From a virus, in the IMG/VR virus record IMGVR_UViG_3300042991_000019, positions 1-23,361 of that record: a stretch of 23,361 nucleotides of DNA. One strand, written 5' to 3'. Positions 38 through 19,097 of the stretch are shown piece by piece. The stretch's first letter is position 1. Each line of letters opens with the position of its first letter. Both the position numbers and the translations under genes were made by a program. The notes below the pieces were generated by a model. That model saw only the letters and a list, made by a program, of their open reading frames with translations. It was not told where the DNA came from and did no database searches.

Positions 38-2584
38 TTATTTTAAGTACTGTACAGCGAATGACTTTAGATAGAACGCTGTAGAGCCAGTAAGCTGTAA
101 CTTAAACCGCATAGCCACACCATCACGGTCAGTTAATGTCACTACTCCAGTGTATAACTTATAACCTGTTGGTAGTGGTAGTACCTGTCCACGGTCTGTT
201 AGTGTTATAGTATCATAGTTAGTACCAGCGTTGTTACTAACACTAGCAACCATAGTACTGTTAAGTGTGTAACTCCCAATCTTAGCGACTAACGCTACTA
301 CTGCGGTTACAGCCTCATCTGGTAATGTCTGTGTGGTTGTTGTAACAACACCATTTGTTACCGTTATGTCTTCGTACAGTTTAACTTCACACCATGATGG
401 TGGATTGGTATCTACAGTTGTAGTAGTAATCTTAATGTACCTATATGTTGTGGTGTTGGTCCATGTGAACTCTTCCATTTCAACAACACCACTTACAGAG
501 CCCATATTAGCTGATGTATATAATGTTGTATAGCTTGAGTCGTCGTTGCTACCACTTACAACAATAACTCTAGCACCATCATATTGTGAACGGTACAGTT
601 GTAGCTTAGTGATCATACGTGCATTACCACTACCTAAATCTATCTTAAACCATTGTGGTGTACTAGTTATATTAGATGACCACCTGTTGTCGCTGGAGGC
701 ATCATCTATACCGTCTACCGCAGCAGGAGGATCATACGGTGATCCGTATGACGACTCAGCAGTAGCTGTTTTATTTAACGCTTGGTTAGTTGTACCTTGT
801 GAATAGGTTATAAACTCTCTGGTTACAACCTGCATTGTTGTACCAGGGTCAGCTACAGTACCGCTAGCGTCTACACCTGTGTAAACAATACCACGTATGA
901 GCTGTTTACTTACGTTCTCGTTAAGATACGCAGAGATAGTACGATCTGTTACTGTATCTAAAGTTATATCATCTACACGTGAGTCTGTACCGCCACCACC
1001 CGCAGCCGTAATAGATGTCCATACAGCGGCTCCCGTATCTACGTTTACCGCTATAAACGCCTCTTCACTAGTGCTATTTACCCACACCTGACCTACAACG
1101 TACCCAGCTACGTCGTCATCATCCACGGTAGGATCTACTGTAGCAATATGTGGAGGAACACCAGATTGTGTTATATACTCTGATACCTCCCACGATAGCC
1201 CACTCCAATATATAACTACCTCCATATCAGCTACCAACACCGGCAGCGCAGATACGTCCTCTTCTATTAACGCAGCTTGTACCATAGCTGGAGAATGTGA
1301 TACAACTACAAGTTTACCGTTAGTTAAAACAGCACTACGCCAACTACCATCAGCTACGTTATTAGAACTTAACCACGTAGCACCGTCAGTAGAGTATAGG
1401 TAGGTAGTACCATTTCCAAAAGCGTAGAAGGCTGTACCAGTGTGAAGTACCGCATATAATTGTGGGCCAGTCGTTAACGTAGTATCAGACCAAGTAGTAC
1501 CATCTGTTGATGTAGATATAACAGCAAATGTAGTGCTGTATCCTACGGCTACAAACTTACTATCTGCGTATATTACATCTTGCCAGTTTAGTGTGAGACT
1601 GCTAGCACTATTGTTCCATGTGTCTAAGTCTGTGGACCTAATTATATTATATGTGTCATCGTCTGGATTACGCATCGTAACAACATACGTACCAGAATTA
1701 TAAGCTATATGTCGTAGGTATACTTCTGGTGCTACGTGAGCGGTCCAAGTAGCGCCAGCGGCAGATGTAGCGACGTAAGCGTCATCCACAGTGTAATCTA
1801 TGGCTACCATACCATACATAACAATAAACAAACTATTTACGTATGCTACGCTTATATAGTCAGCAGTAGTCCAGTCAGTCTGATCGTATAAAGTCCAACT
1901 ACTTCCATGGTTAGTAGATACACAAGACCCAAGTCCAGTACTAGCATCATCCACAACTACTACAATGCATGTACTACTAGCAGCTATGTCTTTTACTGTA
2001 GATCCAGTAGTAACCGGCAATGTTACAACAGTCCATACAATACCACCGTCTATAGATGTGTACAATACACCAGTAGTTGTTATAGCGTACAACGTAGTAC
2101 CATCGGCGACAATTTTAGAGAACGCATGTCCACTCGCCACTAACTCAAATGTGGCTGTGGCATCTTGTGCTAACAATGTATATTCTTTATCGGCGTAATC
2201 CTCAGACTTCACACGAAATCTAACAGGTACTCCAACTTTTGCGTCGTCTGCGTGTGGTAAATATATGTTATAGTCCGCTGTTAATCCAGATACTACATAC
2301 CTGCCACCGTAAGCTTCCGTGCCTAGTACTGTTTCTTCTGTTATAGGTGTTTCTAAAACAGACGATGCTCCACCGCCACCACTAGTTTCATTCCACGTAG
2401 CTAAGGTAGGAGTATTATCGACACATACGTACTCTTTCTTAGCCACGCGATCTATCCACCGACTACCTATAATGAACGTGTCGTTACGGTCGTCTGTAGC
2501 GGTTGGCGGTACTGTGTCAATCCAATACAGTATGTTCTGTACAGATGACCGTAACGCTGTCTCGTGTCTAGTGAGTGATGGCAT
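38..2584 (-). CDS. Receptor-binding tail protein with beta-propeller and discoidin (F5/8 type C) domains
   Basis: This 848-residue protein starts one base after the hub stop. A small module near residues 28 to 72 (DDRNDTFIIGSRWIDRVAKK, then EYVCVDNT, then TWNETSGGGG) recurs near 485 to 532 (GQVWVNSTSEEAFIAVNVDT, then AVWTSITAAGGGG). It is a pattern often seen in phage tip proteins. Residues about 150 to 435 hold repeated Asp-box-like motifs (SIDGGIVW, STNHGSSW, TSAAGATW, STDGTTW, STDGATW) spaced as in BNR/sialidase-type beta-propellers. Residues about 600 to 738 match the F5/8 type C (discoidin) sugar-binding fold: QALNKTATAESSYGSPYDPP, AAVDGIDD, RWSSN, QWFKIDLGS and YRYIKIT. A C-terminal beta domain follows. 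Together these point to carbohydrate recognition on the host surface. The sialidase active site cannot be confirmed. Confidence 0.8.
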   Translation of the reverse strand: MPSLTRHETALRSSVQNILYWIDTVPPTATDDRNDTFIIGSRWIDRVAKKEYVCVDNTPTLATWNETSGGGGASSVLETPITEETVLGTEAYGGRYVVSGLTADYNIYLPHADDAKVGVPVRFRVKSEDYADKEYTLLAQDATATFELVASGHAFSKIVADGTTLYAITTTGVLYTSIDGGIVWTVVTLPVTTGSTVKDIAASSTCIVVVVDDASTGLGSCVSTNHGSSWTLYDQTDWTTADYISVAYVNSLFIVMYGMVAIDYTVDDAYVATSAAGATWTAHVAPEVYLRHIAYNSGTYVVTMRNPDDDTYNIIRSTDLDTWNNSASSLTLNWQDVIYADSKFVAVGYSTTFAVISTSTDGTTWSDTTLTTGPQLYAVLHTGTAFYAFGNGTTYLYSTDGATWLSSNNVADGSWRSAVLTNGKLVVVSHSPAMVQAALIEEDVSALPVLVADMEVVIYWSGLSWEVSEYITQSGVPPHIATVDPTVDDDDVAGYVVGQVWVNSTSEEAFIAVNVDTGAAVWTSITAAGGGGTDSRVDDITLDTVTDRTISAYLNENVSKQLIRGIVYTGVDASGTVADPGTTMQVVTREFITYSQGTTNQALNKTATAESSYGSPYDPPAAVDGIDDASSDNRWSSNITSTPQWFKIDLGSGNARMITKLQLYRSQYDGARVIVVSGSNDDSSYTTLYTSANMGSVSGVVEMEEFTWTNTTTYRYIKITTTTVDTNPPSWCEVKLYEDITVTNGVVTTTTQTLPDEAVTAVVALVAKIGSYTLNSTMVASVSNNAGTNYDTITLTDRGQVLPLPTGYKLYTGVVTLTDRDGVAMRFKLQLTGSTAFYLKSFAVQYLK

Positions 2585-2585
2585 G

Positions 2586-5500
2586 TTAAGATCCAGTTAT
2601 ACTAATTGTAGAGACTTCGCGTAGTACTATAGGTACAGATACACGATATAGTACTGTTTTATAAACAGAGCGCCAACGTACAGCGTTACCTATAACAGAG
2701 TCCCAAGATACTCCACCAGCACTAGTAAATGGTATCGGTATCGACTCAGCTAAACAATACTCTACACTAAACAGTAGCTCTATACATTTAAAGTACAAGT
2801 TCTCTGGTAAATCAAATATACAAGGCTTAACGTATAGTGTACCGAACCAAGCATGAAATGTCTCGTTCTTTCGCGGTGCCCATATAACACACAAGTCAGG
2901 AAACTTTTGTCCCGCGTAAGCTATAGATACTAGTTGCGGTGGCCGCTTTAGTGTCGATATGAGCTTAAATAGCATAGTGTCTACATTAACGACTACGTAG
3001 CCATGTAAAGGTTCGTAGCGGACATCTATAGGATCATAGCAAGTGTCTGGCCATGGATCTTCACCAATCCCTGGTTGGCACGCAACCACAATCTCAGCAT
3101 CAACAGTAGAGTCACTTTCTGTACTAATGATGTTACAACACGCGTCCATTAACGTTTGCCCAGCTACACGTGATCCGGGGTTTATCTTAACATGGAATGT
3201 ACCGGAGAACCCAGGTGGGCATGGGAACGTACCAATTGGATAGTTTGGTGTTCGTGTAACATCTGATTCAGCGGAGGCAGTAGTGTTTTCAGCTTCTGTA
3301 TTAAGCGCTACGTTTAATGCTACGTCATAAAGGTTAGAGCTTGTACCAAACTGTACTTGTCTAAATACAACAGTAACAGGCGGGCCGTCTCCACCGAGAT
3401 TTATGGATACTGAGTCTACTACACCAAGCCCAGGTATTAGCGCGTACTCTGTAGTGTCGTCATACCGCATATACACACCATATGGTCCTAGTGTATACAC
3501 TGGGTTAGTAGCATCTGGATCATACTCAGGTAGTGGGGAGTCTTTAGCGGTTATAAACTTAAACGAATCTAAGTTTATGACATCTAACACCTGTAGGTTC
3601 ATATACGACAGCGGCAGTCCAACTGTGACAGTACGTGTAGTCTCTGGTATGTTAGCTGTATGACCTATACGCGTCATCTGTACAGCCGCAGCAGTAGCCG
3701 TTGTTGTGTCTGTTATATGTTTAAAAGTGTAGTCTATTGTACGGTCGTTACTCTTAGCCGCTTTTACAGACTGTAACTTACGAAGTGCTGTGCCACTTAC
3801 AGCAGCTATTGGATACTGGAACGTGTAATGCACCCTGACAAACTCACGGCGCTCCGCGTCTATAGAGGTTGCCATACGCCCTATGTCAAACTTATACATA
3901 CCATCTAGTATATCACCGTATGCAATAGAACCTTGTGTTTGAACAGTTAGATACCGCTCACCACTCTCACCCCTGTTCCATGTATGTACTAATGCTTTAG
4001 TGAAGTTTGGTGTAAGCTTATAGATGCCATCGCTAGCGTCTAACTGCAAGCCAGACTCAAACAGTACACTATCTAAAAGTTGTGTCCATGTCTCGTCAGT
4101 AATCTCAAGAGACATAGCGTTACCGAGCTGGCTAGTACCAGGGCGTGTGTTTGAGCCTCTAGTAAACCAAGGTATACCACCTTGTGTAAGTATCTCAGCA
4201 ATACAGTCACCAGCGTAGATAGGTGGTCCTGTGTCCACTTGTAGGAAGTTAGGATCTACTGATGCGTCTATCTCTAACAACGAACGTTTAAGTGTGATCT
4301 TACACAGGTCCACCATGTCAAAGTCTGTGTTACCATACGATACACTAGCTATATCAGATGGTGAAATAGGCAGTAACGACTTACCGTCATTAGCATATAT
4401 AGCAAGCTGCCCTGTTACAGTCTCAGCTATTATAGTGTTACCAATCAAACGACAGTAGAATACATGTGTTAATGCAACGTCAGTATTAACATGTGGCGTT
4501 ACTATTAATTCCCAAGCCATACCTTCACGTTGTATGTCGTCAAGTACATACGTGTCATTCGTGAAGTACAACGACCATGTTTGCGGTGCTAACCATTTAG
4601 CGTAGGTAAGATGTAGTAGGTCTGGATCACTAAAGTTAGTTGATTGTTGTATGTCGTAGAATTGTACGTTTACACCAGAGAAATACCACGTAGGCTCGTC
4701 TGGATTTTTCAACTCTTCACAAGTGTATTCTTTATTTGCTTCGTCTGCTATACCTGTAAGTTTAAGGAATACTGCACCGGCAGATATCTGTGCTCCACTA
4801 GCATAAAAAGATACTGTACCCGGTGACTTAAGATACATCAATGGTGATGGTATCCGTGTAAGCGGGATAGCGTTATCTATGAATACAGATTGTAAGTTTG
4901 TGGCAGCAAAACCTAGGGCCTCACTAGGTACAGTGTACCCTTTGTTGTATACCGTTATGCTATCCCAAGCTTGATTTAATGCCAACCCTGTGGTGTTAAT
5001 ACCATAGTTTCCATCACCAATATCTGTAATAGCACCGCTTATAAGACAGCCATTACCCATCTTTAACTTGACTGTATCTCCAACCAAGTCAGCTAGGGCT
5101 GGTGACTTACCTAGATTTATAGATGTACCGACTAGAACCGAGGACTGTACTTTACCAGCTATCACACCTAACACAGCGTTCTTATATGATTCAAAGCCAC
5201 TTATAGCAGCTATCGCACGGCCTACGGCTCTAACACCAGCCCGATAGCCGTAATATGCTGGGGCTGTTAGAAGGTTCTGCCACTCTGAGCCTTCTAGTAT
5301 TTGTTCAGCGTCAGCTGTGTTCTCGTTGTACCTTGATGACATCATTGTCACCATATCTACAAGTGTAATAGTGGTTGCTTGTTCACTCTCTGACCAAGCT
5401 AATCCAGCGGATAATTTGTAGTACCCAAAGAACACACCACTAGCTGTTATATCTTCTAACGACTTAGAGTAGTCAGTTGTCCACACCGCGAAGAAGAAGT

Positions 5501-6686: not shown

Positions 6687-9600
6687 TTACAATGTGTTGT
6701 TGGTTGCCGGGCCGGAGTTTGCTGTAGACCACTCTGTATAGTCGTCGTCACCACCACCAGTAGATGGTGGTGGAGCGCCTACAGGTCCGTTGTTATCACC
6801 AACGCTAGGTCTACGCCCACTATCTAGGTCACGTAACACGGAGTTCAGTAGCGCCTTCATTTCCTTTTGTACAACACGTACAACATCTGCTGCTTGCAGC
6901 CCATCCACTTTAATAGTGCCAATTTGTACTTCACTTAGAAGGTCGCCGTTTACACCAATACCATTCTTAGCTGCTAACCGTAACGCTTCGTTGACCATAG
7001 GAATTAGCTGTGACCTCGTAGCTATATCTGCTGTCTCTGCGTTAAACTTCGTTGTAGCAGCCACGCCCTTGGTAGTCCAGTCTGTAACCTCACTAGCATG
7101 TTTAGCTGCATTACGCTTCTGTGCCTCTTCTATCTGTATAACAAACTCTTCTGCCATAGACGCAGCGCGGCGACCATGCCCCTCAGACTCATATAATTGA
7201 CGGAACTGCTTTATTAACTCTAGTAACTTATCGGCTTCGTCTGTAGCTTTTGTAGTGTCAGTTATACCACCGAACTTACTAACACGTTCTATAATCTCGC
7301 TTTGTATCTGTCTACGTTCAAATACAGGGTCGTTACGACTCTGCCTACGTAACTCCTTTATATAATCACGCATCTTAGCAGCAGAGTCCTCTGCCATCTT
7401 TTGCAATGTTTTCGCCTTCTCTATCTCAGCGTCATACAACTTCATCTTATCTTGCCATACTTTATGATAGGCGTCATACTCTGCTTCATACGCGTTAGTT
7501 ACAGCCTTTTGACGTACAGCAATTTCTTTGTTGTGCTTATCTGTAACCTGCTCAAGACCTTCAGTCGCTATACGTAACATATTTTCTACATTAGTACGTT
7601 CTGCTGCTGTTAGTTTGTGCTTCTCACCAGCGTACCACTCTATTAACTCTGCTATGCGTGTTTTAACCGCTGCTATATCCTCTGGTGTAACAGCTACAAT
7701 CTTCTTCTCTGATAGTTTGTCTAACATACCGAACAACTGTTCAAACGCTGGTAGGTCTGCACTACCAAGTACTTTAGTACCAACAGATATCTCCGTAGTT
7801 ACCTCTTTACCGAAACCAATTTCTGTCATATGCTTAAGATATGCGGCTTTATACGCCTCTGCTTCGGTTTTAGCTAATGACTCAGCATCAGCTTTCCCAC
7901 GCTTCAACCTATTGTCTTGTATTATATCAAACACTTTACGTACATCAGGATCTTCTGGATCTAAGGCACCGACAGCAGACATTTGCGTCTGCATAAATGA
8001 CTTATAAGAATCCGCGTATGGGCTCTTAGACCATGTGTTTTCTGGATATTTTACACGTAATTCTCTTCCACGTTGCATTCGCGCCAATATAGCCGCTTCT
8101 TGCTCGTTTGGTGCAGTCGCTGTAGGCTCCGAAGCGTCAGTAGACTTTCTCTTATATGTTTGTGAAAAGGCTAGCTTCTCAGCCTCGAATCTAGCGTTAC
8201 GTAGCTCGTTAGCTATCTTAGCAAATATGGTTGTAGTTTTCTTTTCTACTGTATCTAGCATCTTTACTAAAGCATCAGTAAATACTGACGGAAGCTCCTT
8301 AGCTAACTCCTCAGTTTTATCAGAAATACGGTTTAAAGCTGTGTTAGTAGCCTCGGCCCCACCGAGTATTCTATCTGTGTACGCATTAGCTAACCTAGAC
8401 CACATGTTACCTATTTGGTCGCCGCGTTTACCTACGTCGGATGTTAACTTGTCGAACGCAGCAGTAGCTGCGTCCCACTGTCCAGTAAGTGTTAACGACA
8501 CAGTACGCAGTATATTACCAAGTAACTCTAAGGCTCCACGTAATACTATTATCACTGTACCTACACCGGCTATAACAGTATTTATAGCAAATAAAACACC
8601 ATCTAGTAGAGTTTTAAACGATATTAGCGACTTATCAGTTTTAGCTGTACCAAATACAATTGCGTTAAATATATTAAGTAGATCGCTACCAGCTTGCGCC
8701 ACGGAGTTACCTATATCTTTAAATATCTTACCAAAGTTTTCACCAAATGTGTTCATAACACGATTAGCAGCTTCCGCAGCAGAACCAGTAGCATTGATGG
8801 CATCCCGTGTTTCATACATAAGTCCAGGCAAAGCCGTTGTTATAACTGCACCGCGACGCCCCTGTTCTGTGCCCGCTACACGAGATATAACATCTATGTC
8901 ACCACCAGTAAGCGAACGAAGTTCTTCTATCTGCGCTGCGAATGCACGCCCCTTAAAAGCTGCTGCCCCAAATTGAATACCAAGTTGCTCCATTTCTTTT
9001 TTAGCTGTATCGGTAGGTTTAATAATAGCTGTAATATACCTATTCAACGCCGTTACTGACTGCGATGTGCTAAGACCAGCACGGTTCAGTCCTGCCAAAG
9101 CACCCATCATATCTTCAATACTAACGCCAGCCGCAGCAGCAGTAACAGCTACGCGACCAAGGTTCGATTGTAAATCTTTTACGTTAAACTTACCAACGTC
9201 AATAGCGTTGAATAATATGTCACTGTACCGCGTCATATCGCCAACAGATGCACCATACGCGTCTTTTAATGTTGTTAGAATAGAAATAGAAGATGCAAAT
9301 GATGTATTTAAACCGCGTGCGACTGTGGCAGCAACAGTACCAAACTGTTCAAGCTGTGACGCATCAATACCAGTAGATAGAGCGTCATAGAAACCTTTTA
9401 CAACTTCTACTTGTGATATATTAAATGCACCGGACAACCTTCCAGCAGCATTACCTGCTTTATCAATCATATATCCTAGCTGTTGTACACCAGTACCAAC
9501 AGGTGCTAACAGTGTTGACATAACAGCTAGTTCACGGTTAAGCTCTCTACCAGCAGCAGCTAACGCTGTAACACCAGCTACGACAGCAGCGCCACCAATA

Positions 9601-10361: not shown

Positions 10362-11075
10362 GTGCTGCTCCGATAGTTAGCTGTGCTTGTAATAGCTGTG
10401 AATCTTCTTCTTCACGAATCTGATTATAAGCTATTAGTTTTGACTGCATAGTTTTATCTTGGGCGTAAAACCAGTCTAACGACGCGGAAAGCCGTTCGCA
10501 ACATCTAAATATCTGATAGTCTAAAGTCCTACCATTTGGCAGCTTTGGACGTTCAACTGTTGTACTAGGCTCCCCGACAATCTGTGTGCCACCATCCGAA
10601 TCATCGGGGAGGTCGATTAAAAATCGCCTTTAACCTTGTCTATCTCTTCTTGTGTGAGATTAGATGCAAGTAGTGCTTCTTTAAGAATGACTACAACATC
10701 ACCTTCCGATAGACCTGACTGCTTAACTTCCTCGGCTAGTGCGCGTAAGTCCGCTACAGTAGTAGGCTTATGATCGAATGCGATGTTAGGATCATTCTCA
10801 AGAACACGATACATTATGTAGATGTTTTGTAGCGAGGTACGTTCTTCCATTTCAGCTAAGAACTTAGGATCGCTCCAATCCTCTTTCTCTTCACGCCCAC
10901 TTTTACCCTGTGTTACAAGCTTAGGTACACGTGGACGCGGCCATAACACTTCAAAGTCGCGCTTAACTCCAACAGTAATAGAAGATACAGTTAGTACTAC
11001 TTCCTCTTCTTTATTAGAGCGAGGAATAGTTACTTTACGTGTCTCACGAACAATCGGCTTGCCGTTGAACTTCAT
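10351..11075 (-). CDS. Tail assembly chaperone, -1 frameshifted long form (GT-type)
   Basis: After the TTT codon (10622-10620) of the short form, stepping back one base at 10620 reads TTA ATC GAC and so on, open for 89 codons to a TAA at 10353-10351. The fusion would be 241 residues. The added part reads LIDLPDDSDGGTQIVGEPST, then TLDYQIFRCCERLSASLDWF and YAQDKTMQSKLIAYNQIREE, ending QLTIGAARGL. It is helical and coding-like, has no plausible start with a good ribosome site of its own, and fills the whole gap to the tape measure. It overlaps the tape measure GTG start by 11 bases. A small share of the frameshifted form is required for tail assembly in lambda and many other siphophages. The open frame and junction are seen; actual shifting is inferred. 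Confidence 0.78.
10570..10623 (-). promoter_or_regulatory. Programmed -1 frameshift site: T-run over the stop codon plus downstream stem
   Basis: The minus strand reads GGC GAT TTT TAA in the short-form frame, with five consecutive Ts (10623-10619). Phe-tRNA on TTT can re-pair with TTT one base back, while the A-site stop TAA becomes TTA. Five bases after the TAA, CTCCCCGA (10611-10604) pairs perfectly with TCGGGGAG (10577-10570), giving an 8-bp GC-rich stem with a 26-base loop. The spacing is right for a -1 stimulator. The site is not a classical X XXY YYZ heptamer, since the stop codon itself lies in the slippery A-site. Confidence 0.72.
10617..11075 (-). CDS. Tail assembly chaperone, short form (G-type)
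   Basis: This 152-residue protein is acidic and helical apart from an N-terminal beta part (PIVRETRKVTIPRSNKEEEV, then VVLTVSSITVGVKRDFEVLW). The middle section KFLAEMEERTSLQNIYIMYR is followed by VADLRALAEEVKQSGLSEGD and the final SNLTQEEIDKVKGDF. It lies between the tail tube and the tape measure, where lambda-like phages keep the G/GT chaperones that hold the tape measure during tube polymerisation. The gene ends GAT TTT TAA at a T-run from which a -1 shift opens an 89-codon extension, which is the main support for the role. The ATG follows a TAGGAGA site after the hairpin. It has no obvious sequence motif of its own. Confidence 0.8.
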   Translation of the reverse strand: MKFNGKPIVRETRKVTIPRSNKEEEVVLTVSSITVGVKRDFEVLWPRPRVPKLVTQGKSGREEKEDWSDPKFLAEMEERTSLQNIYIMYRVLENDPNIAFDHKPTTVADLRALAEEVKQSGLSEGDVVVILKEALLASNLTQEEIDKVKGDF

Positions 11076-11153: not shown

Positions 11154-11660
11154 TTAAGCGGTAACGTACGTACGTGTCGGCTCAAATGCTAACGCCTTGC
11201 CTGCTACGCTGATTGTGTCGAACTCTGAGCCTTCCTTGAAGTTTAACGATTCAACGTTAAAGGCAGGGAATACTAGCTGTTCGTAGTCTGTAGTAGAACA
11301 TGGATTTGCGAGCTTGAATATTAGATCAATGCTGTAAGGACCGCAGCTAGGACCACTTGACACCCATGCAGCCGCACCACCCTTCTTAGTGAGTGCGTCA
11401 ACAGGGCTGATACCAGTAGCAGCGCCGCTAGCAAATGACCATTGCTCAAACTTGAACGAGAACTTGATATCAATTTCAACTTCATCACCAGTACGCTTAT
11501 GGTCGATACGACCACGGTTCTTTACGATGAATGTTGGATATGTAATGGTGAAGTCTAAGTCACCGTCCATGATAGGAATGATAAGTGTATTCGGAGTGAC
11601 AGGAGTACCATCACTAAGAATCAACGAACCATGCCGTAAGTTACGAGTAGAAGCAGCCAT
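11154..11660 (-). CDS. Major tail tube protein
   Basis: This 168-residue protein is mostly predicted beta. The start RNLRHGSLILSDGTPVTPNT is typical of phage tube proteins of this type. It continues DGDLDFTITYPTFIVKNRG, RTGDEVEIDIKFSFKFEQW and a C-terminal FNVESLNFKEGSEFDTISVA. The 'rhgsl.l.Dgt.....l.ip...Gdl.~' opening and the lack of a sheath gene nearby suit a non-contractile tail tube. The ATG has an AGGAGA site overlapping the end of the terminator gene. A strong 11-bp inverted repeat follows the stop codon, which fits a highly expressed gene whose message is partly ended or stabilised there. Confidence 0.8.
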   Translation of the reverse strand: MAASTRNLRHGSLILSDGTPVTPNTLIIPIMDGDLDFTITYPTFIVKNRGRIDHKRTGDEVEIDIKFSFKFEQWSFASGAATGISPVDALTKKGGAAAWVSSGPSCGPYSIDLIFKLANPCSTTDYEQLVFPAFNVESLNFKEGSEFDTISVAGKALAFEPTRTYVTA

Positions 11661-11661
11661 G

Positions 11662-12129
11662 TTAAATCTCCTGAGTCGAGTTAATCACACCTTGATTGAG
11701 TAGAACCACAGATAATGTGTGGAGCGGTGGAAGTTGTTGAAGTATGTCTTTAGCAAAGTCCCCTACGCTACGTAGGTCTAATGGGACTATTTTATTCTCT
11801 TTGAACTGTATGCAAGTATTTTTTATCATCACATCCTTTTTATGAAACAACCTACTATACTTATCTGCTAGGTCATAAATAGCTACAAACTTGTTATCAG
11901 AACGTAATGTAGCGTATTTACTAAAGCAAATAATCTGTATGTCTATGTAACGCTCTATTGTATTACGCCTGCATGGGCCATCTATTATAGATAGGATGTC
12001 GAATGATAACCATTCATCTACATCAGCCACAGGTGGGTTAGGTGTACCACGAATGAACACTGGTGTAGTACCAGCTTCGGCTTGTACGTACTGAATCAAT
12101 CCAGTGTATAAGTCTCTTGATAATAGCAT
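11662..12129 (-). CDS. Tail terminator-like protein
   Basis: This 155-residue protein begins with an amphipathic helix (MLLSRDLYTGLIQYVQAEAG). A beta segment DEWLSFDILSIID near residues 38 to 50 comes next, then RYIDIQIICFSKYATLRSD near 60 to 78 and the helix VAIYDLADKYSRLF. The strand order and the 'i.iqi.cfs' core match the lambda gpU/tail terminator type, which caps the finished tube and joins it to the head. Size and position support this, since it lies between the gp10-like gene and the tail tube gene. It has a GAGGAA site and begins at a TAATG overlap. No direct family motif is strong enough to exclude another neck role. Confidence 0.68.
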   Translation of the reverse strand: MLLSRDLYTGLIQYVQAEAGTTPVFIRGTPNPPVADVDEWLSFDILSIIDGPCRRNTIERYIDIQIICFSKYATLRSDNKFVAIYDLADKYSRLFHKKDVMIKNTCIQFKENKIVPLDLRSVGDFAKDILQQLPPLHTLSVVLLNQGVINSTQEI

Positions 12130-12551
12130 TAGTGCTTCCTCATGTTGCGTATGCGCTCCCGCATACGTTGTACTGCTACTTCTACGAAGTTGCTACCTGC
12201 GCCACCTAAGTAATTACGATACTTTAAGTATGGCTCCCACATAGGATTTGTAATAGACCACTGTTTACCATTATCTGACATATACGGTTGCCATCCTGTA
12301 GCACCTTCAAAGTTACCTATCGGTAGCCCGTAACCTGGGTGTGATGGTGTCATCGGTCTACCAGTGGCAGCACCAGCGGCAGCACCAGTGTCTTTAGGAG
12401 TTAAGTTACGAAGATCAGCTATTGCGTCATCTATTACTTGTGCTAATACGGCTTTCAATCCTTGAACATGTTTCTGCTCTGTAGCCATGAGCATGTCACG
12501 AATACGGCTACGTCTTAAACTACTGGATTGCCCTTGGATTATGGCTGGCAT
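12129..12551 (-). CDS. HK97 gp10-like neck/tail completion protein
   Basis: This 140-residue protein fits the HK97 gp10-like family, which sits at the head-tail joint and helps complete or attach the tail. Visible family features are an N-terminal amphipathic helix (HVQGLKAVLAQVIDDAIADL) followed by the hallmark TPKDTGAAAGA near residues 51 to 61. Next come a Gly/Pro-rich loop and ITNPMWEPYLKYRNYLGG near 100 to 117, corresponding to the usual 'v.N...Ya.yle.G' motif. A C-terminal basic helix ends the protein. The length is normal for the family. The start is one base after the previous stop with an AGGA site. The stop shares one base with the next start (TAATG), so translation is coupled with the tail terminator gene. 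Confidence 0.82.
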   Translation of the reverse strand: MPAIIQGQSSSLRRSRIRDMLMATEQKHVQGLKAVLAQVIDDAIADLRNLTPKDTGAAAGAATGRPMTPSHPGYGLPIGNFEGATGWQPYMSDNGKQWSITNPMWEPYLKYRNYLGGAGSNFVEVAVQRMRERIRNMRKH

Positions 12552-12552
12552 T

Positions 12553-13905
12553 TTACACTATCCTGCGCGCTCCAACACGCCAACGTGTTTTAAGTGTACA
12601 TGTATCAACAGCGACAACAGTGTACTTAGTCCCAAGCAAATCAGATTGTATTACGTCACCACTACGTATCTCAACGTCGTCACGCATTGGTAACTCAATG
12701 ATTGTATCCATGGTATAGAAGTCATCATTCTGTACAGACTGCATGAACAAACGTAGCTGTTTGACAGCCCGATTATCACGATCACTTATCTGCCGTATTA
12801 ATGCGACATTGAATGTATAAATCTTGTTCTCTGGTACAGCTTGTCCATTTACCATGTCAATAACTACGTTATCTGTCTTACGTAATAGTTTGACTTGCTG
12901 TGTACCATCAATGGATTCCATGTCAGTTTCCATTGCGTCTACTACTTCCATATCAGTAGTGATATCAGTAGAGAACGCTAAGATTTCTGGCGAGTATGCT
13001 TTAACCACTGATGCCTCGATTCTTTGGTATATATCGTTGTAATCATATACCTTAACGTCTGTGGATTCAAGGAATATATCTGACGGTACTACTATAGCGG
13101 CTACACCGCCTGTAACGTACACGTCTGTAACAAGCAGTACCACCGTGTCATATAGTATATTAGCTACAGCACCGCCAATTACTATAGATGGTGGCAGCCA
13201 AAGTGTAGCGATATCATAAGTGGCAATTCCAGTAGCGCCACCAACGCCAACAGCTTGTGGATTATGTACCGATACCAAGTCAAATGTTGTCGCAGTTACC
13301 ACGTCGGCAACAACAACCGCAGGTGGTGTTACAATATACAGTACTGTAGCTGCCGAAGCTACAATAGCACTTGTTGTAATAGCTACAGGTGGTGTTACAA
13401 CAGACAGTACTGTAGCTGTCGTAGCTGTAGTAATACTTATTGCAACAACTACAGGTGGTGTTACAACAGACAGTACTGTAGCTGCCGAAGCTACAATAGC
13501 ATTTGTTGTAATAGCTACAGGTGGTGTTACAACAGACAGTACTGTAGCTGCCGAAGTTATACTAGCACTTGTTGTAATAGCTACAGGTGGTGTTACAACA
13601 GACAGTACTGTAGCTGCCGAAGCTACAATAGCACTTGTTGTAATAGCTACAGGTGGTGTACTTACAACTACGCTGTCATATAGGGGTGTATATGACGCAC
13701 CACCTGTAACTGTGGTAGTTAGGGATGTTGTAGTTACTGTATCCGCAGTTTGTGTTGTTAGCGCAGCACCAGTAGCTACAACATCTGGAGAAAACACACT
13801 GATAACTGTAGCTGTCACAGCTACAGTTACCCCACTAGCTGTACTTGAAACAGGGCCAAGCCAGTTAGATACCCACTTACCTAACCAAGCTCCTTGCCAT
13901 GCCAT
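12553..13905 (-). CDS. Tandem-repeat protein with possible head-closure C-terminal domain
   Basis: This 450-residue protein has three parts. The N-terminus MAWQGAWLGKWVSNWLGP is a Trp-rich peptide of a kind common at the start of small phage structural proteins. Residues about 84 to 259 are 22-residue repeats starting PPVAITTSAIVASAATVL: five nearly identical copies (84 to 193), then three degenerate ones. The repeats are Val/Thr/Ala-rich and probably form beta strands or a fibrous stalk. Residues about 285 to 450 are non-repetitive and end VIQSDLLGTKYTVVAVDT and then RWRVGARRIV. This resembles the end of head-closure (stopper) proteins, where 'GD.v...g..Y.V..v' is followed by 'w...~rri'. The gene lies immediately before the gp10-like and tail terminator genes, where a head-closure gene is expected. 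It starts one base after the previous stop. Confidence 0.65.
   Translation of the reverse strand: MAWQGAWLGKWVSNWLGPVSSTASGVTVAVTATVISVFSPDVVATGAALTTQTADTVTTTSLTTTVTGGASYTPLYDSVVVSTPPVAITTSAIVASAATVLSVVTPPVAITTSASITSAATVLSVVTPPVAITTNAIVASAATVLSVVTPPVVVAISITTATTATVLSVVTPPVAITTSAIVASAATVLYIVTPPAVVVADVVTATTFDLVSVHNPQAVGVGGATGIATYDIATLWLPPSIVIGGAVANILYDTVVLLVTDVYVTGGVAAIVVPSDIFLESTDVKVYDYNDIYQRIEASVVKAYSPEILAFSTDITTDMEVVDAMETDMESIDGTQQVKLLRKTDNVVIDMVNGQAVPENKIYTFNVALIRQISDRDNRAVKQLRLFMQSVQNDDFYTMDTIIELPMRDDVEIRSGDVIQSDLLGTKYTVVAVDTCTLKTRWRVGARRIV
13327..13656 (-). repeat. Five tandem 66-bp direct repeats inside a coding region
   Basis: The motif AGGTGG (plus strand) recurs at 13321, 13387, 13453, 13519, 13585 and 13651, giving an exact 66-bp period and five full copies. 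Each copy encodes 22 residues beginning PPV. Copies share long identical stretches such as ACAGACAGTACTGTAGCTG, with the third-most-leftward-reading copy the most divergent. Three further degenerate copies can be traced in the protein down to about 13129. Because 66 is a multiple of three, all frames stay open, which explains apparent open frames on the opposite strand. Confidence 0.95.
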
Positions 13906-13906
13906 T

Positions 13907-16900
13907 TTAACTACCCTGTGTTACAGTAGTCCGATTACCGTTTGCATCGACTGTCGCTGACATTTCGTCAGCGTCATCACCAAGTGTGCGGAATACAACA
14001 GTACCACCTGCCCCAGTGTTACCGCTAGACTTAGATATTGTCATAGCGCCTACTTTACGTAGTAACCGCGCCATAGTCCACCCTGGTATAATTTCAGCCG
14101 CCATTACCCATGACTTTATCTGTGCTTCTGATGGCGCTAGACCACCACATACAGTGTAAACCTTGTCAGATGTACTAGTGATACCGTAGCCACCTGTAGA
14201 TGTACTTTTAATCCAAGCAGACGCGTCATCTGTATACAGACGGAATGTGTCGTCAGTGAGTACTAGCTGCATAGAAGATGTATTGTCTAGCTCAAGTGCT
14301 GTAAACCCATCTTGATATATTACTGCGTTACCAGCATCTTGTAACTCCATACGTCCAAAGAAGTCACGTATGCCTACCTCGGTTGTAACAGCGTAATAGA
14401 ACCAAGCTACTAGCTTCCTCTTCTCGTTAGTACCGTCAGGATCGTTAATGTCTACTTCAATTACACCGCTTGCTTGTAGTGTAAACTCTGTTGCAGCAGA
14501 TCCGTCATACCCCAATGACGCGTACGTCGATAACATTACTTGTGCTGCGTACACAATCCACCCGGTACTACCTGCTACAGTATTATATGTATATTGTCTT
14601 GCAGCGGTAGTGCCAGATTGATATGTAAGTCTAATACGAACAACATCGTCTGTAGAGAACTCATCGCCATTGTCGTACGCAAGCGCCCAAGATGTACCAG
14701 TAACAACTTCGTTAGCTATCTCCGTAGCTGTTGTTACGTTGTAAACTTGAATACGACTACCAGCTAATATACTTAGTACAGAAGCTACAGAGTCTTTAGG
14801 TAATGGATACTCTGTAAGATAGCTGGTTGCGTCGGTAACGGCTGCGACGCATATGTTTATAACAGCGTTTGTAGTACTCGCTGTTGTACACCTTACACGT
14901 ACTTTAAGCTTGATACCTGTAGTTGGGGTAATAGCGCCGACATCATACAGATTTGTACCTGTAGCTGTAAGCCAAGTACCACTCCAACCACTTCCAGTAT
15001 CGTACTGGAACTCTATTATATGGTTAGCACTATTTGTACCGTTAAATGTTGGTGCCGCATTCGCTAGTCTAGTTATACCTAACCAGAAGTAGTCCATCTC
15101 CCACGTCGCTTCATCGCCAACAGTCGGTGCTAACAACCGACCCGTAGCAGAAAACTCAGGTGTACCACCTGTTACAACTAGCTTAGTACCACTTAATACT
15201 GTTGGTTCGTTACAAAGTAGAACAAGGTAGCCCCCTGTTGTACTTACAAATGTGTCATAGAATGATGTACCATATACAGCCGTAGCGCCAGTTGTTGGGG
15301 TTGCACTACGTAAACCACGTGCGTTTGTGTCTAGCGCATTCAATATCAGCCCTGTGTCTGCGCCGTCCCCCCAAACATCTACAAGTGTCATACGTACATC
15401 AGAGTTAGTATTTGCAGCTGCACCACTTCTAGCGTTACTACAGTAGCATCTACGTGCCACGGTCCCACTTGAGTTACCAGTCGTAGCTATAATACCAGCA
15501 CACGCATCGGCGCTGCCACAGTCATATGGTGCTGCCTTTGTAGCAATGCCTTGTACAAGTGTATTGTAGCTAGCATCTATAGTAACAATAGCGTTATATG
15601 GGTGTATGTTAGCAATACTTGCATAGTTACCACCGTAACCGTATACTGATATGTTAGTAGATGCGGCACTTATGTTGATTGCGCTAGTAGCTAATGTGGA
15701 AGATGTAGTAATGTTCTCGATACTATGTGCGAATACCATGTCTGTTATTGTAATGTTTGTACAAGACAGAACTCTAAGTGCCGCACCTATTATAACTACA
15801 TCTGTTAACTCAGAGTTAGTTACACGTGTAAGTGTTATGACCCCTGTGTAATTAGCACCACGTGTTAGCACCGTGGGGGTATTATCACCGAACGCCATGT
15901 ATTTACCACCACTGATTGTAACAGCATCACAGTCCGTGATAGCAATACCTGTTGCGCCAGCCTCTATCTCATAACTAAGTCCAGTACAATCCGTCATTGT
16001 TACGCCAGAGAAACACGATGCTACGATAAATGCTACGGCATTTACAGCGTCATTTACACCTACGGTGCATCGTGTAAGTAACACCTCTGTAGCACACTCA
16101 GATATATATATTTGATCTAATGCGTACACGTCCGTCAATTCTGCACTATATGCCTGCGCCAAATATATGTATCCGTTTACAGATACTTTACTAAACTTTA
16201 TAGCACCTGCTGCGAAAGTACTCCAGTCTATACGTGTTGCTAGTGCCGTATTACGAGTATTAGCAGTCCAGTCAGCGGATGTACTGCTACTTATATGTAT
16301 GTTTGGTACACGTAATCTAGCACCTGCCGGTAATGTTTTACCAAACGTAATACCAGTACGTATGCCGAACACACACGTACCATCAGCATTGTTCTTAAAC
16401 ACCTTACCACGAGCATCTGTAGCGGCACGGTTTGTTTGTGTAGAGCGTGTACCACCAGCGGCTGGCCATGTCTCCCAAACATTTGTACCACTACCAGTTT
16501 CTACGTCAATAGCTGGGCATCTGTCTGCAACGTAAAATTGGAATGTTTCATCGTCAGTCCCTGCGGCTGTACCTAAGTAAAACCAATCACCTTCAATCTC
16601 ATGCTCTCCTAGACGTGGGACCGTTATACCCTCGGCTTCGCCATGTACTAAGTGTAACCAACCACGTTGACCACCAGTTGTGCTATTTACTGTTATTGTT
16701 GCACTACCTGGAAGTGTCACAACATCATTATCAACAAATGCTGCTGACACACTCCTAAACTTTACGAAACCTGACGATGGCATAGCTGATGCAGCAGCAG
16801 TTGGTGCAACACCTAGGGCTGTCCACACACCTAGAAACTCACCAGTAGCTCCACTTACACTAGTACAATCGGCTACATCAACAGTCCCTAATGACGGTAC

Positions 16901-17140
16901 ATTTCCAGTGGACGCATCAAAAGGCACCCACCAAACAGTTGTACCATCATCATGTATTTTACCACCTGTGGTAGCGTCTATAGTTATAGAACCTACTACC
17001 GCAGCCTGCTGCCCCCACCTACTATCGCTATTACGTGTAAGTGTAGCATCAGTATTAATTGTTATGTCGTCACCATTATTAAGGCCACTCTTAGTCGAGT
17101 CGTCAATGTTTAATGATGTCGAGAATGTCTGTGCAGCCAT
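13907..17140 (-). CDS. Large beta-helix-like structural protein, possible head/neck appendage
   Basis: This 1077-residue protein has no signal peptide or membrane helix. Residues 1 to about 230 are beta-rich, with WGQQAAVVGSITIDATTGGK and GTTVWWVPFDASTGN. Residues about 280 to 600 contain short, regularly spaced strands of the form 'TLTRVTNSELTDVVI', 'VLSCTNITITDMVF' and 'GIAITDCDAVTISGG'. These are typical of right-handed parallel beta-helices in pectate lyases and phage spikes. Cysteines recur at equivalent turns. The part after 640 looks like beta-sandwich modules. The last 70 residues (ending DANGNRTTVTQGS) resemble a short C-terminal domain seen on many phage structural proteins. Position between connector-type genes and the neck proteins suggests a head fibre, collar or whisker rather than a tail spike. 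Enzymatic activity cannot be judged. The ATG follows an AAAGGG site. Confidence 0.7.
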   Translation of the reverse strand: MAAQTFSTSLNIDDSTKSGLNNGDDITINTDATLTRNSDSRWGQQAAVVGSITIDATTGGKIHDDGTTVWWVPFDASTGNVPSLGTVDVADCTSVSGATGEFLGVWTALGVAPTAAASAMPSSGFVKFRSVSAAFVDNDVVTLPGSATITVNSTTGGQRGWLHLVHGEAEGITVPRLGEHEIEGDWFYLGTAAGTDDETFQFYVADRCPAIDVETGSGTNVWETWPAAGGTRSTQTNRAATDARGKVFKNNADGTCVFGIRTGITFGKTLPAGARLRVPNIHISSSTSADWTANTRNTALATRIDWSTFAAGAIKFSKVSVNGYIYLAQAYSAELTDVYALDQIYISECATEVLLTRCTVGVNDAVNAVAFIVASCFSGVTMTDCTGLSYEIEAGATGIAITDCDAVTISGGKYMAFGDNTPTVLTRGANYTGVITLTRVTNSELTDVVIIGAALRVLSCTNITITDMVFAHSIENITTSSTLATSAINISAASTNISVYGYGGNYASIANIHPYNAIVTIDASYNTLVQGIATKAAPYDCGSADACAGIIATTGNSSGTVARRCYCSNARSGAAANTNSDVRMTLVDVWGDGADTGLILNALDTNARGLRSATPTTGATAVYGTSFYDTFVSTTGGYLVLLCNEPTVLSGTKLVVTGGTPEFSATGRLLAPTVGDEATWEMDYFWLGITRLANAAPTFNGTNSANHIIEFQYDTGSGWSGTWLTATGTNLYDVGAITPTTGIKLKVRVRCTTASTTNAVINICVAAVTDATSYLTEYPLPKDSVASVLSILAGSRIQVYNVTTATEIANEVVTGTSWALAYDNGDEFSTDDVVRIRLTYQSGTTAARQYTYNTVAGSTGWIVYAAQVMLSTYASLGYDGSAATEFTLQASGVIEVDINDPDGTNEKRKLVAWFYYAVTTEVGIRDFFGRMELQDAGNAVIYQDGFTALELDNTSSMQLVLTDDTFRLYTDDASAWIKSTSTGGYGITSTSDKVYTVCGGLAPSEAQIKSWVMAAEIIPGWTMARLLRKVGAMTISKSSGNTGAGGTVVFRTLGDDADEMSATVDANGNRTTVTQGS

Positions 17141-17150
17141 GTGCTACCCT

Positions 17151-17588
17151 TTACTGGATACGCAGTATGCCGGTAGCATCCCATGCTATAGTAAAGTCTC
17201 CACCGCTAGAAGTCTTATTTGCAGCGAAGTCTTTGTAGCATACTAGCTTACTTGTAGCAGCTACGCCAGTGTCCTTATAGATGATTGCTCCACGTGCTGT
17301 AATAGTAGCTGTAGCCCATGTTAGATCATCTGCTGTGAAATACGCACGGTCATTAACTAAGTCGATGTCAACAACTACGTTAGCTAATGCCGCTCCACCA
17401 GTCGTATAACCACCACCACTTGCTACCTCTGCGCCAGATATAGCATTAATGTCTGCAAGATCCTCATGCGTATCTTGGTCAGGTGTATATACATCCGTAA
17501 CTAATAGAACTTTAAATGAATCGGTGCTTAGGTTAATGTCACCTACAGCAAGTCCTAACTTTAATGTGTTATATACTACGTTAGCCAT
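17151..17588 (-). CDS. Phage virion structural protein (widespread 145-residue family)
   Basis: This 145-residue protein begins MANVVYNTLKLGLAVGDINL. Its sequence runs through KVLLVTDVYTPDQDTHEDL, SGAEVASGGGYTTGGAALA, DIDLVNDRAYFTADDLTWA and GAIIYKDTG, and ends in GGDFTIAWDATGILRIQ. I recognise this pattern from many marine and freshwater tailed phages: 'kv.LvtssY.pd.d.h....di...e..g.GYt.gG..L.n' followed by 'v.w......arg.viY' and a final 'f.i.w...GilrI'. There it is annotated as a structural protein near neck or tail genes. The fold is probably all-beta, and its exact place in the virion is not known to me. The ATG has an AAAGGC site. The gene stands between the small connector and the large beta-helix protein and may help anchor the latter. 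Confidence 0.7.
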   Translation of the reverse strand: MANVVYNTLKLGLAVGDINLSTDSFKVLLVTDVYTPDQDTHEDLADINAISGAEVASGGGYTTGGAALANVVVDIDLVNDRAYFTADDLTWATATITARGAIIYKDTGVAATSKLVCYKDFAANKTSSGGDFTIAWDATGILRIQ

Positions 17589-17600
17589 GATTTGCCTTTA

Positions 17601-17861
17601 TTAAGTGTACATCACAGAGTCTAATTCAAACGGCTCTGTAATTGATTGTAAATCGCTTTGAAGTTGAGTAATAGTTTTGTTAAGAACTTCTAAATACTCA
17701 TTCCATTTGAACTCTTGCCCATCAATGTTGTATGATGGCTTAGGCTTTAGAAGGATATCACGCCTTGTTACTATTGCACGTGTAAGTGACTCGCGTATGA
17801 TAGATACATGATCTGAGTCAGAGAACTCAACAGTAGGTGGTACGTATGGAAGCTCTGGCAT
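17601..17861 (-). CDS. Small putative connector (gpW/DUF6148-like) protein
   Basis: This protein has 86 residues from the ATG. A TTG two codons further upstream (17867) is an alternative start, lying 5 bases from the GAGG site instead of 11. It is helical and hydrophilic. The middle reads LKPKPSYNIDGQEFKWNEY followed by LEVLNKTITQLQSDLQSITE. An 'sY.idGq...w..yle.l...i..l' pattern in a protein under 100 residues after the capsid gene is reminiscent of small phage head-completion proteins such as the gpW/DUF6148 type, which bind beneath the portal. The similarity is recalled rather than computed. The gene lies downstream of the inverted repeat after the capsid gene and is followed after 12 bases by the next structural gene. 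Confidence 0.6.
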   Translation of the reverse strand: MPELPYVPPTVEFSDSDHVSIIRESLTRAIVTRRDILLKPKPSYNIDGQEFKWNEYLEVLNKTITQLQSDLQSITEPFELDSVMYT

Positions 17862-17869
17862 AAACAAGT

Positions 17870-17927: not shown

Positions 17928-19097
17928 TTACTCGTGTGCGCTGATGACATACCAAGGAGCATAGACATAAGGAACGCCACGTTCGTCTGCACGGAACTGT
18001 GCAACAACGTCACGCTCAAATGCATCCTTGTCATGTGATGCAGAAATAACCTGCATCGGGAACAGTACGCGATACCGGAACGCCTTCTTGAAGTCACCGA
18101 TAAACCAGTACTTGTTAGCATCGCTAGCAGATACGCTAGCAGCTACCAGCCGACGCTTAACCCAAGGTGATGTTACAGGCTGCAACATACCAGCAACAGG
18201 GTTGTTACTCAGAGTCTGTGTTGTAGCACCAGACTGTGTAACACGAATCTCAGTCGCGTTAAGAATGTTACGTGCCGTAGCAATCTTAGCAGCGGTTGTG
18301 AGGATTACCTTCGGGTTAACCATGATCGGACGCGCTACTGACGCATCATTTGACATAGCTTCAAACGCCTGCATAGCAGCGTCAATGCTTGTCCAGTCAG
18401 TTAGAGCCTGTGTAATCTCGTTGATACGAGGATCGTTAGCATCCTCGACAGCGCTTACATAGGTGTTACGAGCAGTACCCTTACGTGTGAAGGTATTGGT
18501 GATGCCAAGAACAACGTCGAAAATACGACGCTCCTTGTTGAGTGCAAGAACCTCACCTACACGCTGGCCCATTTCGAGTACCTGACTCGTACGGTCGAAG
18601 AATATCATTTCGCGTGTAATGCCAATCTTTAGGCCACGCTTCTTGGACTGTGGTACATCAATGTAATCTTCACTGAACTTAACGTCAGGATACTCACCAC
18701 CCTCTTCAACTTCGATAGCGTCGTCGCTAATCTCAGCTAGCCCAGGGATACGTGTGTTGTCCTCACGTGACTTTTCGACAGTCACAAGCTGTTCACCGAT
18801 GTACTCGGGAGCAGAGTATGCTTCGTAGACAGATTGGAATACCATCTGCCCAGTGATGTTTGTGAATGCAGCCAGATTGACAGGTGCGACAGCTTCCTTG
18901 ACAGCTACGAAGGAAGAATCGTTGTTAGCGTTAGCCAGCTTACGCACACCATCAACGCCAAGTGTGGCGTCAGCGATGTCACGGATGCTAAGGTCCTCTA
19001 ACTTCAACTCTTTGCTCTTAATAGCCTCAACGATAAGCTCAGTACGTGACTGAATCTCTGCGGGAGTCTTGCAGCTTTCAAATACGGCAGTAAGCAT
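17928..19097 (-). CDS. Major capsid protein (HK97-fold type)
   Basis: This 389-residue protein has the features of an HK97-type major capsid protein. A helical N-terminal region of about 75 residues comes first. Next is a segment beginning NITGQMVFQSVYEAY, then a long charged loop EISDDAIEVEEGGEYPDVKF consistent with the extended E-loop. After that comes KKRGLKIGITREMIFFDRTS and the spine-helix region VGEVLALNKERRIFDVVLG. The C-terminal half (PIMVNPKVILTTAAK, then YWFIGDFKKAFRYRVLFPMQ) fits the A-domain, with the usual 'w..gd..kaf.yr...p' pattern near the end. The ATG follows an AAAGGAA site. It sits directly after protease, scaffold and decoration genes. A perfect inverted repeat follows it before the next gene, which may limit read-through. 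Confidence 0.9.
   Translation of the reverse strand: MLTAVFESCKTPAEIQSRTELIVEAIKSKELKLEDLSIRDIADATLGVDGVRKLANANNDSSFVAVKEAVAPVNLAAFTNITGQMVFQSVYEAYSAPEYIGEQLVTVEKSREDNTRIPGLAEISDDAIEVEEGGEYPDVKFSEDYIDVPQSKKRGLKIGITREMIFFDRTSQVLEMGQRVGEVLALNKERRIFDVVLGITNTFTRKGTARNTYVSAVEDANDPRINEITQALTDWTSIDAAMQAFEAMSNDASVARPIMVNPKVILTTAAKIATARNILNATEIRVTQSGATTQTLSNNPVAGMLQPVTSPWVKRRLVAASVSASDANKYWFIGDFKKAFRYRVLFPMQVISASHDKDAFERDVVAQFRADERGVPYVYAPWYVISAHE

Follow-up and report, generated by a model that had tools for sequence, protein, structure and literature searches.

Head-closure (stopper) proteins are small. The gene at the centre of this analysis was proposed in an initial annotation to encode such a protein behind a long stalk of tandem repeats, perhaps an undescribed collar fibre or a surface adhesin attached at the neck, with a fibrous protein devoid of closure function as the other reading. 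The locus raises the question of whether a stopper can carry its own stalk and, if so, where the stalk comes from. The window, that is, the whole stretch of DNA analysed here, is an entire viral record of 23,361 bases that may be a fragment, and the fused gene is known from this one uncultured-phage metagenomic record.

Genomic setting and layout of the gene

The main genes of the window all lie on the minus strand. Starting from the portal gene, whose product matches phrog_21 and PF05136, the order is a gene at the scaffold/protease position, a cement-like gene, the major capsid gene (PF25209), an 88-aa gene, a 145-aa phrog_644 gene and the gene of a 1077-aa protein, followed by the fused gene, a 140-aa gene at the neck position, the terminator, tail tube and chaperone-position genes and the tape measure gene (Table 1). 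The adaptor, terminator and tube names used here are deduced from this order. The 88-aa protein has no library match and its gene is conserved in three relatives described below (L005, L006 and L008), and the C-terminal part of the 1077-aa protein has a relative in Curvibacter phage PCA1, a hypothetical protein. Because no sheath gene was recognised, the virus is likely a siphovirus.

Elsewhere in the window, the capsid protein (17928-19097, minus strand) aligns with the C-terminal portion of phrog_133 (head maturation protease), a match that may reflect the presence of protease-capsid fusions in this family. The product of the last gene (38-2584, minus strand), 848 aa long, contains an F5/8 type C domain of the galactose-binding-like kind and matches propellers weakly; it is a candidate receptor-binding protein of the tail tip. 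The chaperone-position gene and the tape measure gene are separated by a 255-base gap (10362-10616, minus strand), a place at which many phages encode a second, frameshifted chaperone product. With its listed GTG start, a 310-aa gene has a 71-base overlap with the tape measure gene (6687-6757, minus strand); because the counterpart in the relative L002 starts later, the true start is probably further inside.

The fused gene, whose strand had been left unstated, is exactly one minus-strand open reading frame of 450 codons, uninterrupted by a stop codon or an overlap. Composition divides its product in two: V, T, A, I and S account for 73% of residues 18-285, which contain 12 charged residues, and residues 286-450 are of ordinary composition with 46 charged residues. 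The domain border placed earlier near residue 285 is thereby borne out, with homology to the standalone relatives starting at residue 301-302. As a whole, the 450-aa protein has no match in Pfam, PHROG, NCBIfam, PDB sequences, INPHARED phages or IMG/VR.

At a lag of 22 residues, the protein is 38% identical to itself compared with 12% in shuffled sequences (z 13.3), with harmonics at 44, 66 and 88, and twelve units fall in register over residues 18-281 when laid out at this period, confirming the described tandem repeats ahead of a separate C-terminal domain. When five of the units are compared with the first among them, 55-66 of 66 bases agree (66-bp array, Tandem Repeats Finder score 561), and because these five are near-identical at the DNA level, assembly may have altered the exact count of repeats. 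Repeats of this period are absent from the other proteins of the window (best z 4.0 versus 15.9 for the stalk protein). The repeats make up about 60% of the protein, are almost uncharged and are predicted to be beta-rich; an AF2 model of residues 1-300, calculated without an alignment, predicts at low to medium confidence (pLDDT 62-76) roughly two strands of 8 residues in each unit of the central stalk. Since comparison of this model with the PDB gave nothing significant, the best match having an E of 0.39 and low probability, the stalk fold is left unnamed.

Table 1. Positions of the features discussed, in window coordinates unless a contig is named.
Feature	Position	Strand	Basis
Whole gene, 450 aa: cap, repeat stalk and head-closure domain	12553..13905	minus	ORF, ATG start
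Trp/Gly cap MAWQGAWLGKWVSNWLG, residues 1-17	13855..13905	minus	sequence
Repeat stalk, residues 18-281, twelve 22-residue units	13063..13854	minus	repeat layout and AF2
Five near-identical 66-bp copies within the stalk	13327..13656	minus	Tandem Repeats Finder, base comparison
Linker, residues 282-300	13006..13062	minus	low pLDDT; homology to relatives begins downstream
Possible internal start: GAGG 13017-13014, 5-nt spacer, in-frame GTG 13008-13006 (residue 300)	13006..13017	minus	
Head-closure (stopper, SPP1 gp16-type) domain, residues 301-450	12556..13005	minus	fold, synteny, homology
Segment RDNRAVKQLRLFMQSVQND, residues 376-394	12724..12780	minus	same letters in L002; AF2 helix
88-aa protein after the major capsid gene, adaptor position	17601..17867	minus	deduced from gene order
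145-aa phrog_644 protein, marker of the appendage-like module	17151..17588	minus	PHROG match, E 4e-37
1077-aa protein, middle gene of the proposed appendage module	13907..17140	minus	gene order
Neck protein (Ne1/HK97 gp10 position), directly after the fused gene	12129..12551	minus	deduced from the L006 relative
Tail-terminator-position protein	11662..12129	minus	deduced from gene order
Tail-tube-position protein, bait for relatives	11154..11660	minus	gene order
phrog_644, middle gene and separate 23-residue repeat protein, right after the portal gene	L006/G003 contig 33887-36587 (L035 4888-7587)		

The N-terminal cap resembles the start (M.W.G.W.G.W...W) of 41-51-aa ORFs in other phage contigs, which lie directly behind a virion-type gene (L010 7976-8101 in reverse-complement coordinates, L012, L013, L016, L021 and L022), and W15, which was not selected for, is also shared. 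In contrast to the window protein, these ORFs are very short, mostly end in an Arg-rich tail and have neither repeats nor a stopper, so that the likeness is one of a 17-residue motif. In 9 of 9 contigs checked, the stop of the preceding gene overlaps their start (ATGA), and the two that were searched had no PHROG match. Equating the short ORF and its preceding gene with the window cassette was not supported: by hhalign the C-terminal ends are unrelated (prob 0.2%), as are phrog_644 and phrog_240-type proteins (prob 1.1%), and only the cap motif remains common.

The C-terminal domain and its relatives

A search of IMG/VR with residues 286-450 returned one relative, L002, with 49% identity over residues 301-449. 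The L002 counterpart has 182 aa and no repeats, lies directly ahead of the same neck, terminator and tube genes, and has about 30 residues preceding its stopper domain. Using the tail tube as bait, we found L005 and L006, while the capsid protein as bait yielded no relatives. The L005 stopper (139 aa) is encoded right behind a 76-aa counterpart of the 88-aa gene, the L006 stopper (116 aa) occupies the same place, and both are free of repeats. The domains of the window, L002, L005 and L006 align as a four-sequence set. Almost the entire 116-aa protein of L006 is covered by a match to phrog_161 'head closure Hc1' (E 7.7e-4), and the product of the adjacent gene matches the Neck1/HK97-gp10 families. 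As the initial annotation had supposed, the window protein thus carries an extra region on a head-closure protein: the arm (cap plus repeats, 285 residues) is absent from L002, L005 and L006, and by this sequence comparison the repeats are a lineage-specific addition. In the more distant relative L008, a 71-aa adaptor-position gene is followed directly by the terminator and the tube (4288-5479), and the stopper and neck genes are missing in between.

An AF2 model of residues 286-450 based on the four-sequence alignment reached a pLDDT of about 80 in its core (pTM 0.52), with poor outer parts. Comparison of the predicted structure with gpFII/gp16-type folds, proposed at the outset, placed the SPP1 gp6/gp15/gp16 connector first among the PDB matches of the core (E 7e-5, prob 1.0). 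The next fold matches were the T1 stopper, 7-7-1 neck 2, the FCWL1 interface, Milano, SaPI1, Pam3 and XM1, and of the first 25 matches almost every one is a head-to-tail interface protein. In a viral structure library, the domain had 122 matches at E<=0.001; among the best 50 of these, which are 103-278 aa long, the named ones are mostly head-tail joining, adaptor or closure proteins. The AF2 model and the fold searches together place the gp16/gpFII beta-barrel fold in the C-terminal domain. Besides this fold, the domain shares with SPP1 gp16 and lambda gpFII a gene position behind the capsid genes and ahead of the neck, terminator and tube genes, a helix segment between strands and a length of about 150 residues. 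The known proteins are about 100-150 aa long, some with a short N-terminal adaptor-binding extension, whereas the window protein has 285 extra residues. The segment RDNRAVKQLRLFMQSVQND, which is identical in L002, includes a low-confidence AF2 helix (379-390) between strands and, going by the model, may sit where known stoppers have their lumen-facing helix. In the TP901-1 stopper, helices of this kind partly block the channel (PMC10747895).

Because stopper fold, synteny and the PHROG match of a syntenic relative agree, we regard the C-terminal domain as a head-closure protein and take this assignment as settled with high confidence. Neither a head-closure protein elsewhere in the record nor an unrelated C-terminal fold was found: an alignment search gave exactly one copy of the domain in each of the four records, and the window record, which may be a fragment, held no second candidate. 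Although the repeats fill some 60% of the chain, the fold, the synteny and the short proteins of relatives that carry this domain effectively exclude a standalone fibrous protein without closure function. The link to phrog_161 depends on the hmmscan of the L006 protein, because the phrog_161 profile searched directly against the contigs had no match. PDB profile searches with head-closure, neck and adaptor families returned nothing credible, and the C-terminal domain and the tail tube had no matches in GTDB genomes.

Association of the repeats with phrog_644

The 22-residue repeats of the window gene lie within two genes of a phrog_644 gene, and relatives of phrog_644 are found in 100 INPHARED records. 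In phiCbK, phrog_644 is gp75, directly before gp76, which is the proposed head filament of the phiCbK genome paper (PMC3556154). The MiniFlayer satellite encodes it as gp6, ahead of gp7, the 1376-aa gp8, a 'tail fiber' gene and the head-to-tail adaptor. The MiniFlayer authors proposed an adsorption module consisting of the tail fibre and three hypothetical proteins, and MiniFlayer fibres were seen on the helper's neck (PMC10690885); in our reading of the gene table, this module is gp6-gp9. A periodicity scan of ten phrog_644 loci detected 22-24-residue repeats in 9 of 10 phrog_644 neighbours and in 0 of 64 control genes, where the neighbours had been picked once the first cases had been seen and two of the loci, phiCbK and Colossus, are related. 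In six of the nine positive loci the repeat gene immediately follows phrog_644; in MiniFlayer and Pickett one gene stands between the two, and in Hawkeye the repeat gene lies upstream.

An out-of-sample check is provided by the 74-kb contig of L006 (G003), a relative that was found independently and whose phrog_644 region was examined after the ten-locus scan. It carries phrog_644, a middle gene of about 380 aa and a separate repeat protein (period 23 residues, z 10.3), and its stopper is a separate short gene 8-10 kb from this module. Because the three genes have the same order in G003 and in the window, we read the window gene as the stopper joined to the repeat protein of the module. L005, whose stopper is without repeats, has no phrog_644 within its fragment.

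The repeat proteins linked to phrog_644 (among them phiCbK gp76, MiniFlayer gp8, Gordonia Kampe gp39 and Pickett gp27) have a period near-identical to that of the window stalk, V/T/A/P-rich repeats predicted to be beta, and phrog_644 nearby, but they are separate proteins whereas the window repeats are fused to a neck protein, and the likeness is by period and composition. A profile of the window repeat units finds none of the others. In pairwise scoring, only phiCbK gp76 is clearly above both shuffled and reversed sequence (z 4.1), the other scores being weaker or no better than reversed sequence; the G003 repeat scores 118, where shuffled sequences average 91 (sd 12, maximum 132). Our best reading of these sequences is that the repeats belong with an appendage-like module. 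The module alone does not indicate the neck, because the phiCbK filament leaves the top of the head (PMC3556154) and phrog_644 lies among tail and lysis genes in several actinophages. The proposal of a collar fibre or adhesin gains indirect support from the association of module and repeat protein, and its remaining part, outside display and binding, we infer.

Competing explanations and a model of the neck

The explanation that we prefer, at a probability of about 0.62, is that an appendage repeat protein is fused to the stopper and gives rise to neck stalks. The C-terminal 150 residues would form a ring that closes the DNA channel, with the adaptor beneath the portal on one side and the tail terminator on the other, and the repeat part would be the third member of an accessory module together with the phrog_644 gene and the large middle gene. 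Known stoppers are hexamers whose N-termini contact the adaptor (R4C, PMC10276861; TP901-1, PMC10747895), and because these N-termini lie there, the arm would emerge from the neck where adaptor and stopper meet, at about the height of the TP901-1 neck-protein collar. Up to six beta-repeat stalks, each tipped by a Trp-rich cap, would be anchored by ring membership in place of a separate collar protein. In the manner of neck or head fibres, they may contact the host surface, or they may bear or recruit the product of the middle gene. We infer the ring number and copy number, the exit point and surface exposure of the arm, its role in adsorption, its partner and its ligand. As an elongated neck appendage, the arm would resemble T4 fibritin, A-1(L) gp80-82 (PMC10966104), TP901-1 NPS and XM1 gp40; these are separate docked proteins, whereas the window arm would belong to the stopper chain itself.

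If translation began at the GTG codon of residue 300, a normal 151-aa stopper would result, with the long form as a second product and only some ring positions stalked. We consider this possible but doubtful, and because it is a variant of the preferred explanation, our confidence in the two overlaps. The GTG is in frame exactly where homology to L002 starts and is preceded by GAGG at a 5-nt spacing, the same arrangement that precedes the listed start of the 88-aa gene, while the ORF's own start has only AGG. It is also, the last codon aside, the sole internal start with a Shine-Dalgarno match of at least 4. No relative is known to use such an internal start, however, and as 2 of 17 internal start codons reach a Shine-Dalgarno match of this size, one at the border by chance would be expected roughly one time in eight. 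Rather unlikely, in our view, is that the repeats are packed around the neck as a structural collar or cement and are not displayed. The Milano collar, which ties the neck to the tail and carries no fibres (PMC10491603), offers a precedent, and the almost uncharged, beta-rich repeats would suit such a role, but elsewhere repeat proteins of the same period adjoin a head-filament candidate (phiCbK) and an adsorption module (MiniFlayer).

The fusion is seen in a single metagenomic record, in which a lost stop or an assembly join is possible, and relatives have separate genes. That the repeat protein and the stopper are truly two adjacent genes, joined by an assembly or sequencing artefact, is nevertheless improbable given the single open frame described above and the extra residues that also lie ahead of the L002 stopper domain.

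In the literature searched, coverage of which was partial, we found no stopper with a repeat stalk, and the preferred explanation of a stalked stopper suggests a neck-mounted fibre as a new arrangement of a known stopper type. For the TP901-1 neck protein, the mode of attachment was stated as unknown (PMC10747895). A stopper carrying its own stalk would be a direct, covalent way of anchoring a neck appendage. Tentatively, phrog_644 and a 22-24-residue repeat protein might constitute a mobile module that builds head or neck fibres and is fused here to a stopper, possibly with an internal start setting the number of stalked subunits. As a clue, the fusion connects phrog_644 and the 22-24-residue repeat proteins with virion appendages; in about 100 cultured phages, phiCbK and MiniFlayer among them, these proteins mostly lack annotation. 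The phrog_644 link offers a test of the still unproven phiCbK head filament.
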